Of a stretch of 57,585 nucleotides of DNA, positions 41,148 to 44,442 are shown one piece after another. How positions within the stretch are numbered: position 1 is the stretch's first letter; the number at the start of each line of letters is the position of its first letter. Source of the DNA: Candidatus Bathyarchaeia archaeon (lineage in GTDB: Archaea > Thermoproteota > Bathyarchaeia > Bathyarchaeales > DTEX01). The notes below the pieces were generated by a model that saw only the letters and a program-made list of their open reading frames with translations, ran no database searches and was not told the origin of the DNA. The DNA lies in NCBI GenBank assembly GCA_038882715.1, contig JAVZNR010000011.1:1-57585 (forward strand). The letters run 5' to 3'. A program made the position numbers and the translations under genes.

Positions 41148-41495
41148 ATGGTTAGAGGTCTATTAAAGATTATAGTGTATGGTGCATCTGCGCTTCTGCT
41201 GTTTCTAGGCGTGGTCTTCATGATGTCATTTAATCTCGGACTACCCTATCTCCTAGTTGGGGTTCTACTCACATCAACGGCGATAATACTTCTGGCATTA
41301 ACTAGGGAGAGAAAGCCCATAGAGATTAAGCAGACAATATCGGTCGGCGGCCCGGTGAAGGTTAAAGAGGTGCGCTGCCCAGTCTGCGGCGCAAACATAG
41401 ATGTGACTAAAGTTAGGATAGTCGCCGGGAGACCAATAGTTACATGTGGTTATTGTGGAAACAATTTTGAGTTGACAGAGGAGCCGCTATGGTAG
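41148..41495 (+). CDS. Two-helix membrane protein with cytoplasmic zinc ribbon
   Basis: A 115-residue protein with two membrane segments (about residues 5-27 and 29-50) joined by a short loop, then a soluble tail with a CPVCGAN and CGYCGNN pair (about 83-104), a rubredoxin-like zinc ribbon. I do not recognise the family. Its last seven bases overlap the start of the Cys-tail protein, so the two are co-translated. It may be a chaperone, anchor or redox partner for the tail-modification system. Confidence 0.65.
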   Translation: MVRGLLKIIVYGASALLLFLGVVFMMSFNLGLPYLLVGVLLTSTAIILLALTRERKPIEIKQTISVGGPVKVKEVRCPVCGANIDVTKVRIVAGRPIVTCGYCGNNFELTEEPLW

Positions 41496-43081
41496 CGACA
41501 GCTAATAGATGGGTTATCTTCCCGCTCCTAATACTTGCTTTAGCCTTGAGCATCCATCCGGCTTATGCCCAGGTTAGATATAGGGTTGATAGGGAGTGGG
41601 TTCAGATATGGATAAATAAGGATGGCTCAATAGACATACTATACAACATAACCATAACATATGTTTCGGGAACCCCTAAGGGGATAATCACCCTCGGGAT
41701 GCCGAAAAAAGGCTTCCAAATACATTATGTCCGCGATATTAATGGCGGAAATATCACTCACGCTATAATCTCCTATGGAGACTTTTATGGCATAGACATA
41801 TTGCTTAGAGACCCAATCCTACTGAACAAGTCCTACACGGTGATTGTTTACGCTTCAGTCCCAGAAATGATATATGAGGATGAGATGAACCCGGGTAATG
41901 TTGGGCTGAAATTCTATCCATCGACATTCGATGACGCCGAGGGAAAGATAAGCGACATTAGGGTTGCAATAGTTCTCCCAGAGGGGGTCAGGGAGGATGA
42001 GGTGAAATATGCTGAAAGAAGATTCAGCAATGTTTACAGGAATGAGGAGAACCTGCTTGTAGTCTACTGGGAAGAGGACGATTGGCCACCAGCCGAAGAG
42101 TTTTGGGTTGGGGTTTCCTTCCCAAAAAAGTATGTTAGCATAGGCCCAGACATCTGGCATTATATTTTAGTTGGCGGGTCAATCGCAGCATTTATGGTCG
42201 CGATAGGTGTAGTCATAGTTTTAGCCTTTAGGGGATTGAGGAAGGCTAAGTATGAGAAGCCTAGAATAGCCATCGAAGCCCTAGGCCCAGCTCGGGGCCT
42301 CACGGCTGTTGAGGCAGCCGTCCTCTTAGACCTAAAGCCCATTAAGGTTTTAACAATGATTCTCTTTAGCCTTCTCCTCAAGCGTGCAGTTGAAATAGTT
42401 TCTACCGAGCCTGTGATCAGGCTTAGGAGACTACATTACAATAGCGCTGATGAATCCAACCTAAGATACTATGAGATTGACTTTCTATGGGCGATAAGGT
42501 CTGATGGAAGCCTAGATGAGAAGGCGCTCGCAAGACTATACCTTAACCTAAAGGACACAGTGAACCTTAAGATCAGGAGCTTCTCTAGAATTGACACAAT
42601 AAATTACTATAGGGATATTGTGAATAGGGCTTGGCAGCAGGTTATGCGGGCTGGCACACCGGAGCTTAAATGCGATGCTCTTGAGGGGAACATGGAGTGG
42701 CTTTTGGCCGACGAGAGATTTGAGGAGAGACTGCGAATAGCGTTCCCGCCAGACATAATAATCTATCCTAGGCCCGACTGGTGGTGGTATTGGGGTTGGC
42801 CGCGCGGTCAACCTCCAATCCAGACCGGTGGCGAGGTTAAGCCGACCCCCATACCAGGCCAAGAGTTCGCAAATAATATAGTCTTGGCGATTCAGAAGGC
42901 CGCAAACAATATCGTTTCAAATGTGCAGGAGTTCGCAAACCGACTGGTTCCAGCACAGAAGACGCAGGTTACCCAGAGGCCGCTGAGATATCCTAGCTGT
43001 GTATGTGCCTGCGCTAGCTGCGCCTGCGCATGTGCGTGTGTGAGTTGCGCGTGTGCCTGCGCCCATGGGGGTGCCCGTTAA
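41489..43081 (+). CDS. DUF2207-like membrane protein with a ten-cysteine Cys-Ala C-terminal tail
   Basis: 530 residues. A signal peptide (about 1-27, ending AYA), an extracytoplasmic beta-rich domain (28-220), one membrane helix (about 225-248) and a cytoplasmic part from 249 that holds a winged-helix-like LTAVEAAVLLDLKP segment; this is the DUF2207 layout. A WWWYWGWPRGQPP stretch near 431 and a linker follow. Residues 503-526 are three Ser-Cys-led blocks, SCVCACA, SCACACACV, SCACACA, then HGGAR: ten cysteines in 21 residues. The topology puts this tail in the cytoplasm. The next gene is a radical SAM enzyme 2 bases later, so the tail is a likely substrate. It resembles neither a known zinc finger nor a repeat of DNA, because the Cys and Ala codons vary. 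Confidence 0.85.
   Translation: MVATANRWVIFPLLILALALSIHPAYAQVRYRVDREWVQIWINKDGSIDILYNITITYVSGTPKGIITLGMPKKGFQIHYVRDINGGNITHAIISYGDFYGIDILLRDPILLNKSYTVIVYASVPEMIYEDEMNPGNVGLKFYPSTFDDAEGKISDIRVAIVLPEGVREDEVKYAERRFSNVYRNEENLLVVYWEEDDWPPAEEFWVGVSFPKKYVSIGPDIWHYILVGGSIAAFMVAIGVVIVLAFRGLRKAKYEKPRIAIEALGPARGLTAVEAAVLLDLKPIKVLTMILFSLLLKRAVEIVSTEPVIRLRRLHYNSADESNLRYYEIDFLWAIRSDGSLDEKALARLYLNLKDTVNLKIRSFSRIDTINYYRDIVNRAWQQVMRAGTPELKCDALEGNMEWLLADERFEERLRIAFPPDIIIYPRPDWWWYWGWPRGQPPIQTGGEVKPTPIPGQEFANNIVLAIQKAANNIVSNVQEFANRLVPAQKTQVTQRPLRYPSCVCACASCACACACVSCACACAHGGAR
42998..43078 (+). other. Coding segment of the Cys-Ala tail (candidate modified peptide)
   Basis: This segment codes residues 504-530 of the DUF2207-like protein. 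The ten cysteines are spaced C-x-C within blocks, with a two-residue gap holding one serine between blocks (positions 510 and 519). TGT and TGC codons and four alanine codons are mixed, which shows selection on the protein sequence and argues against recent DNA slippage. The final HGGAR contains the GGTG that probably serves as ribosome site for the radical SAM gene. Confidence 0.7.
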
Positions 43082-43083
43082 TC

Positions 43084-44442
43084 ATGGTTAAGATTGGTCT
43101 TAAGAGGCTTTTTTCTGGGAGGATTAGGCTCCCTCTGTATCACTTGAGGGTTTACGATAATGTTCATAGGGGTTTAAGGCTCCACTTAAGGCTTGAGAGG
43201 GACGGAAGCGGTGTATTAATTGTTAATGCCTCAAGGGTCCTATTCCTCAATAAGACCGCAGCCGAGTATGTTGCCTCATTCATTAAGGGAGAGAGCGAGG
43301 ACGAAACTGTGAGAAAAATGGTTAAGCGCTACGATATCGATGCTGAAACGGCGCGCAAAGACTACCATGAAATTCTCTATGTAATAAACACTTTTGTGAA
43401 TACGCCGGATGTCTGCCCAGTCTCGTATTTGGGCGTTGAGAAGATGGAGCCGTTCCAAAAGGAGCTGAGCGCACCATACCGCATGGATCTAGCAATTACA
43501 TACAGATGCAATAATAGGTGTATCCACTGCTATGCTGGTGGACCTAGGGAGACGAGGGAGCTGACGAAGAAGGAGTGGTTTAAGGTTATGGATAAAATCT
43601 TTAGTCTCGGGATTCCACACGTCGTCTTTACTGGTGGTGAGCCAACTTTAAGGGATGATCTGCCCGAGTTAATAGCGTATGCCGAGAAGATTGGACTTAT
43701 ATGCGGGTTAGTTACTAATGGGCGTAGGCTTAAAGATAAATCGTACTTTCAGTCCCTGGTTGATGCTGGCCTAGACCATATTCAGATAACCCTCGAATCC
43801 CATGATCCCGAAATCCATGATAGAATAACTGGCGTTGCTGGGAGCTGGAATGAAACGGTTGAGGGCTTGAGGAACGCTGTCGAGTCGCCCATATACACTA
43901 TAACTAACACGACGCTCAATAAACATAACGCTGACGGAATTCTGGAAACCATAAAATTCATACATGACCTTGGACTTAAGCAGTTCGCATGTAATAGTAT
44001 AATATATTCTGGAAAGGCGGCTCAGCCGGAAGCGATTAAGGATTTCGCCATAGAGGAGCATGAGCTTGAGCCAATACTAACTAAAATTAGGGATTATACA
44101 TATGAGCTCGGGCTGGAGTTCATGTGGTATACGCCGACGGAATACTGTATATTAAATCCGCTTAAACTTGATTTAGGAATAAAGACGTGCAGCGCATGCC
44201 GAATAAGCATGTGCATAGAGCCAGATGGAACAGTTATACCGTGCCAGAGCTATTTTGCTCCGCTTGGAAACATTCTTAGGGATGATTGGGTGAGTATCTG
44301 GCAGCATCCATTATGCCAAGAGATTAGAGGTAGAAAGTATGCTCCGGAGAAATGCCGCGAATGCCCGATGCTGAACATATGTGGAGGCGGATGCCCATTA
44401 AAAATTAGATATGAATCCTATGTTTGCGGCAACATACCATAG
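43084..44442 (+). CDS. Radical SAM/SPASM enzyme with N-terminal PqqD-like domain
   Basis: 452 residues from the ATG at 43084, which starts two bases after the preceding stop. Residues about 40-105 match a PqqD/RRE-like fold (VLFLNKTAAEYVASFI, ETVRKMVKRYDI), the domain that recognises precursor peptides. The radical SAM signature is YRCNNRCIHCY (C142, C146, C149), with GGEPTLR near 180. A SPASM-like C-terminal cysteine set (KTCSACRISMC, VIPCQSY, EKCRECPMLNICGGGCP) would hold auxiliary iron-sulfur clusters. Such enzymes cross-link or epimerise peptides. The Cys-rich tail next door is the obvious substrate. A heme-related enzyme is an alternative reading. Confidence 0.88.
   Translation: MVKIGLKRLFSGRIRLPLYHLRVYDNVHRGLRLHLRLERDGSGVLIVNASRVLFLNKTAAEYVASFIKGESEDETVRKMVKRYDIDAETARKDYHEILYVINTFVNTPDVCPVSYLGVEKMEPFQKELSAPYRMDLAITYRCNNRCIHCYAGGPRETRELTKKEWFKVMDKIFSLGIPHVVFTGGEPTLRDDLPELIAYAEKIGLICGLVTNGRRLKDKSYFQSLVDAGLDHIQITLESHDPEIHDRITGVAGSWNETVEGLRNAVESPIYTITNTTLNKHNADGILETIKFIHDLGLKQFACNSIIYSGKAAQPEAIKDFAIEEHELEPILTKIRDYTYELGLEFMWYTPTEYCILNPLKLDLGIKTCSACRISMCIEPDGTVIPCQSYFAPLGNILRDDWVSIWQHPLCQEIRGRKYAPEKCRECPMLNICGGGCPLKIRYESYVCGNIP

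Follow-up and report, generated by a model that had tools for sequence, protein, structure and literature searches.

A radical SAM/SPASM enzyme with an RRE domain co-occurs with a Cys-Ala-tailed membrane protein in archaea and bacteria: a proposed modification of the tail

Sactisynthases and ranthipeptide synthases, such as SkfB, CteB, and SuiB, act on small free peptides that are encoded nearby. In SkfB, SuiB, and CteB, the leader is bound via the RRE, and a Cys-rich or other core is modified (PMC6231123). The enzyme described here resembles them in its three-part architecture of RRE, radical SAM, and SPASM/Twitch domains, and resembles SkfB and CteB in having a putative Cys-rich target. However, the only substrate candidate here is the C-terminus of a membrane protein of 300–600 residues. 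PqqE/PqqD (PqqD being the prototype of the RRE) and anSME are likewise SPASM enzymes, but the present enzyme scores far under the PqqE cut-off. anSME modifies a Cys within a large protein, as is proposed here; it acts on one Cys in sulfatases, unlike the multi-Cys tail considered below.

Membrane proteins of TIGR04222 with Cys-rich C-terminal segments have been proposed as substrates of MNIO (DUF692) enzymes, and their tails are Ser/Gly-rich and predicted to be periplasmic (PMC12452194). The present case is similar in that an unstructured Cys-bearing C-terminal tail lies beside a peptide-modifying enzyme and its modification is proposed, whereas the enzyme belongs to another superfamily and the tail is predicted to be cytosolic. 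The carrier of the tail does not match TIGR04222 in NCBIfam. This set of proteins is the nearest conceptual precedent that we found. No description of the enzyme-tail pair was found in the literature, with subscription journals mostly outside our coverage, and no entry covering the pair was found in NCBIfam or Pfam.

The enzyme and the membrane protein encoded ahead of it

The window, i.e., the whole stretch of DNA that was analysed, comprises 57,585 nucleotides from a Candidatus Bathyarchaeia archaeon. The features discussed below are as follows.

41148..41495, + strand: small protein with a TM segment and a zinc ribbon, a possible accessory of the Bathyarchaeal form (Pfam; recurrence at tail loci)
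41489..43081, + strand: carrier (P0002, 530 aa) with an exported beta-domain, one TM helix, a cytosolic helical domain, and a Cys tail; presumed substrate (AlphaFold, homologs)
41576..42124, + strand: carrier ectodomain, residues 30–212 (AlphaFold; hhalign to bacterial carriers)
42152..42235, + strand: carrier TM helix, residues 222–249 (AlphaFold; positive charges on the tail side)
42857..42958, + strand: carrier helices 457–490 ahead of the tail, by inference a possible leader-like recognition element of the archaeal form (AlphaFold, homologs)
42998..43078, + strand: Cys-Ala tail CVCACASCACACACVSCACACAHGGAR, presumed core peptide, with the unchanged core CACVSCACACA at 43031–43063 (homolog alignment, codon comparison)
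43084..44442, + strand: radical SAM/SPASM maturase with an N-terminal RRE (P0001, 452 aa; ORF, Pfam, NCBIfam, orthologs, AlphaFold, Foldseek)
43177..43401, + strand: RRE (PqqD-like) domain, residues 32–106 (AlphaFold topology, Pfam PqqD at 22.6 bits, TfuB1 profile match)
43495..43962, + strand: radical SAM core, residues 138–293, with CxxxCxxC (C142/C146/C149) at 43507–43530 (Pfam)
44188..44394, + strand: SPASM cysteine set C369, C387, C424, C427, C433, and C437 (Pfam, ortholog comparison)

A preliminary description of the locus had placed a Cys-tail gene two bases ahead of an enzyme with an N-terminal PqqD-like domain, a CxxxCxxC motif, and SPASM cysteines, and all of these assignments stood. 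The carrier stop codon occupies 43079–43081, leaving a two-base gap before the enzyme start at 43084. The longest ORF would begin at ATG 43030; this start was rejected in favour of 43084 because from it the tail DNA would be translated out of frame ('MCVCELRVCLRP...'), and comparable N-terminal extensions at other loci are the same artefact.

In Pfam searches, the enzyme matched Radical_SAM (E = 4.8e-30) and SPASM (E = 2.6e-10; 40.8 bits vs 21.5). The cysteines of CxxxCxxC are unchanged in 26/26 orthologs, and the six SPASM cysteines fit the motif CxnGx4C - Cx2Cx5Cx3C (C369, G382-x4-C387, and C424-x2-C427-x5-C433-x3-C437). The PqqD match at residues 50–98 (E = 1.3e-4, 22.6 bits) falls 0.8 bit short of the gathering score of 23.4, and this family was found in 11 of the 26 orthologs (best E = 1.7e-7). 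In the AlphaFold model (mean pLDDT 90.7), residues 32–106 adopt the beta-beta-beta-alpha-alpha-alpha topology of an RRE, and the sequence profile of the enzyme family matches the RRE protein TfuB1 (6jx3_B, E = 7.8e-5). The same profile matches SkfB, PqqE, SuiB, and CteB. The RiPP maturases SkfB, SuiB (precursor-bound), and CteB are the top fold matches of the enzyme in a Foldseek search of the PDB, with identities of approximately 16–22% to solved structures of this type.

No NCBIfam equivalog came anywhere near its cut-off. The top generic matches were NirJ2 and PqqE, both far under the cut-off: the enzyme reached 133 vs 381 bits for PqqE (TIGR02109), and 135 vs 500, 118 vs 650, and 117 vs 500 bits for the NirJ2/heme d1 or AhbC/AhbD equivalogs. 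A cofactor enzyme (heme, PQQ, MoaA) was rejected on these scores.

The AlphaFold model of the carrier consists of an N-terminal hydrophobic helix, the beta-rich region 30–212, the TM helix 222–249, a helical region (273–435), helices 457–490, and a disordered Cys tail. A charge bias flanking the TM helix in 91 of 105 homologs (with 8 ties) indicates an N-out/C-in topology, by which the tail is predicted to be cytosolic. The ectodomains of the archaeal and bacterial carriers are homologous (hhalign 99.7%, E = 4.2e-25). Short bacterial carriers lack both the cytosolic helical domain and helices 457–490, and the tail is the sole cytosolic element common to them and the long archaeal carriers. P0002 does not match DUF2207 (PF09972) in Pfam, and a Gemmiger-type bacterial carrier (L063) matches it weakly (18.2 bits vs the 24.4 cut-off). 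An exported N-terminal domain followed by a TM segment is common to DUF2207 proteins and the carriers, but the Cys-Ala tail lies outside the family model. In a fold search, residues 30–212 resembled ribophorin I/OST1 and M1 aminopeptidase domains, with low whole-chain TM-scores.

The carrier ends in ...SCVCACASCACACACVSCACACAHGGAR, a pattern of S-(CA)n-CV blocks with a terminal GG. Among 88 distinct archaeal-type C-termini, the tail core shows 0% amino-acid difference and 63% synonymous codon difference, whereas positions −40 to −17, just ahead of the tail, show approximately 82% amino-acid difference. The search pattern itself fixed the residues of the core; it did not fix the flanking positions −2, −4, −7, −9, and +12, which are also conserved (C at −2 in 88/88, at −4 in 87/88, and at both −7 and −9 in 86/88; G at +12 in 88/88). 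The reversed tail pattern gave no matches in 398 genomes of the phylum. Together with the free synonymous codons, this control rules out that the tail arose by chance or from low-complexity sequence. In the bacterial carriers, extra residues follow the tail.

Occurrence of the pair across genomes

We scored the presence of the tail by an exact pattern match and that of the enzyme by a profile of tail-associated enzymes. Orthologs scored at least 418 bits (one broken copy scored lower) and paralogs at most 236, and in the enzyme tree the tail-associated enzymes stand apart from paralogs. Among the 398 phylum genomes, 27 have the tail and the enzyme, none has the tail only, 3 have the enzyme only, and 368 have neither, so that all 27 tail genomes are contained in the 30 ortholog genomes. 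The Fisher p value of approximately 7e-39 is not corrected for relatedness, which inflates it, and most genomes in the counts are MAGs. Full carriers were found by profile in tail genomes only; two further carriers, those of G171 and G183, lack a tail and run off contig ends, and there are two marginal partial matches.

On first inspection, the enzyme lies directly downstream of the tail in 25 of the 27 genomes; in G390 and G302, it lies upstream on the same contig, and at the apparent exceptions L058/L059 it was found upstream of the tail gene. Seven further genomes from the family of the present archaeon have orthologs with 72–92% identity beside this tail, and in G008 the enzyme is cut by the contig end. 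One of the three enzyme-only genomes (G330) has no tail, and its contig breaks at the enzyme gene. The other two (G264 and G401) belong to one genus and are genuine exceptions, as neither a tail nor a carrier was detectable in these genomes. Because their enzymes are nested among tail-associated ones in the tree, the tail was likely lost secondarily. In both (L262, L267), the enzyme gene lies near a gene for an AOR-type oxidoreductase and a second radical SAM gene. In another genome (G021, L130), the enzyme is broken into several frames and the carrier by a stop, reflecting either joint decay or sequencing error.

Scanning the contigs of 84,980 species for the tail core gave at least 120 stretches. 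Those listed span more than 10 phyla of archaea and bacteria. By record title, they include Bathyarchaeota, Thermoproteota, Thermococci, Theionarchaea, Methanofastidiosia, Methanocella, and Hermodarchaeota among the matches listed, as well as Bacillota, Chloroflexota, Krumholzibacteriota, Aminicenantes, Zixibacteria, and more. Among these listed matches, 111 of 119 tail ORFs have an orthologous enzyme within the fetched stretch (8 kb or less), located downstream in 76, upstream in 30, on the opposite strand in 4, and on both sides in 1. Most of the eight listed tail ORFs without a nearby enzyme are cut by the end of the stretch. For four of the eight, a whole-genome search found exactly one ortholog elsewhere in the genome. 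In two Hermodarchaeal genomes, tail and ortholog are on different contigs; in G416, they are a few kb apart on opposite strands; and in G417, they are approximately 29 kb apart. The same type of search found no ortholog in G418, which has the tail. A second sample, 148 genomes of a separate bacterial family, contains four with exact tails, all of which have the enzyme, and in a fifth enzyme genome (G463, L239) the orthologous enzyme lies beside a divergent Cys tail, SSCASSCASSCACASSCACACACASSGRAGC.

The distances among carriers and those among enzymes are strongly correlated (Mantel r = 0.94, 0 of 2000 permutations, 81 pairs), in part owing to common ancestry. The Methanocella enzyme groups with those of Bacillota that have a long archaeal-type carrier with a GGGGCT-like end (L073, L099, L162, L171), a grouping that suggests a transfer of the enzyme-carrier pair between the domains.

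The preliminary description had called for a check of whether the two genes co-occur, and they do, in both domains and with varying gene order, the two genes being separated from each other in four genomes. It had also held that its idea would fail if the enzyme were widespread without the tail and had another clear substrate. This situation was not encountered.

Putative modification of the tail and alternative readings

We propose, with a probability of roughly 0.7, that the enzyme is a radical SAM maturase that, guided by its RRE, chemically alters the Cys tail on the cytosolic side of the membrane protein. The RRE domain would dock onto the cytosolic part of the single-pass carrier, and the C-terminal Cys-Ala tail would be modified at the radical SAM centre. 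The tail most likely remains on the carrier, where it would form a cross-linked or metal-handling element that is anchored in the membrane and exposed to the cytosol. The enzyme has a genetically associated ribosomal candidate substrate (27/30 enzyme genomes contain the carrier; 111/119 listed tail loci contain the enzyme), and the tail is favoured as the target because it is the only cytosolic part common to archaeal and bacterial carriers. Its role as the substrate is thus inferred by elimination, which is not proof, and there are no biochemical data. The earlier suggestion of a RiPP-like modification at the C-terminus of a large membrane protein gains strong support from the co-occurrence and the conserved tail, whereas the substrate role and the chemistry are unproven. 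Our guess at the chemistry, by analogy with SkfB, SuiB, and CteB as the nearest folds and in view of the Cys-rich target, is a Cys thioether of the sacti- or ranthipeptide sort.

The linker at 470–500 had been put forward as a possible target of the RRE. Helices 457–490 could act as a leader in archaea, but the linker cannot be a universal target. Because the short bacterial carriers lack these helices, the recognised element may differ in bacteria or be the tail itself.

An ORF related to the TM and zinc-ribbon protein occurs at 33 of the 120 listed tail loci, mostly or only in Bathyarchaeia. A related ORF also precedes the truncated carrier of G171 (L261). No plasmid match was obtained, and a plasmid-borne locus was rejected.

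CxC repeats are typical metal ligands. Given the frequent zinc-ribbon membrane protein beside the Bathyarchaeal pair and the two genomes that retain the enzyme without a tail, the tail might stay unmodified and bind metal or Fe-S in the manner of a metallothionein, the enzyme having another target or needing the tail as a partner. We consider this unlikely in light of the near-perfect pairing at the genome level, even where the genes lie apart, and of the strict Ala, Val, and Ser between the cysteines, which would be unexpected from metal binding alone. To our knowledge, the RRE-SPASM enzymes whose function is established have ribosomal peptides as substrates.

The RRE plus SPASM architecture, the clear C-terminal boundary of the tail, and the further residues after the bacterial tails could also be read as a classical RiPP, with the membrane protein serving as a very large leader from which the modified tail is released as a free peptide. 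This appears quite improbable because the ectodomain and TM helix are conserved across the domains and the tail is predicted to face the cytosol. In addition, no protease or transporter was found to recur across the listed tail loci, so a released product is not indicated; a general protease is not excluded for leader removal. That the two genes are mere neighbours, with the enzyme serving heme, PQQ, or another cofactor pathway, is scarcely credible even though NirJ2 and PqqE are its best generic matches, since those scores (135 vs 500 and 133 vs 381 bits) are far under the cut-offs and the pairing holds across gene orders and without linkage.

Beyond the modification of the tail itself, we advance only tentatively, at somewhat less than even odds, that the pair represents an undescribed class of archaeal and bacterial modification, in which a poly-thioether or metal-binding tail is permanently anchored in the membrane and no peptide is released. 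For an orphan radical SAM family and a family of membrane proteins, left uncovered by NCBIfam and Pfam, the proposal names a specific pairing of enzyme and substrate that is maintained in more than 10 phyla of both domains. If it is correct, the RRE-guided radical chemistry familiar from small natural-product peptides also completes the terminus of a cellular membrane protein that is conserved. We know of almost no characterised RiPP biology in Bathyarchaeia, Thermoprotei, and Hermodarchaeia, and the tail is usable as a search tag. The isolate Gemmiger gallinarum DSM 109015 has the enzyme-carrier pair, which makes the idea directly testable. In enzymes of the Gemmiger type (L109, L079, L173), the second SPASM cluster is reduced to C433, and extra residues are present ahead of CxxxCxxC.
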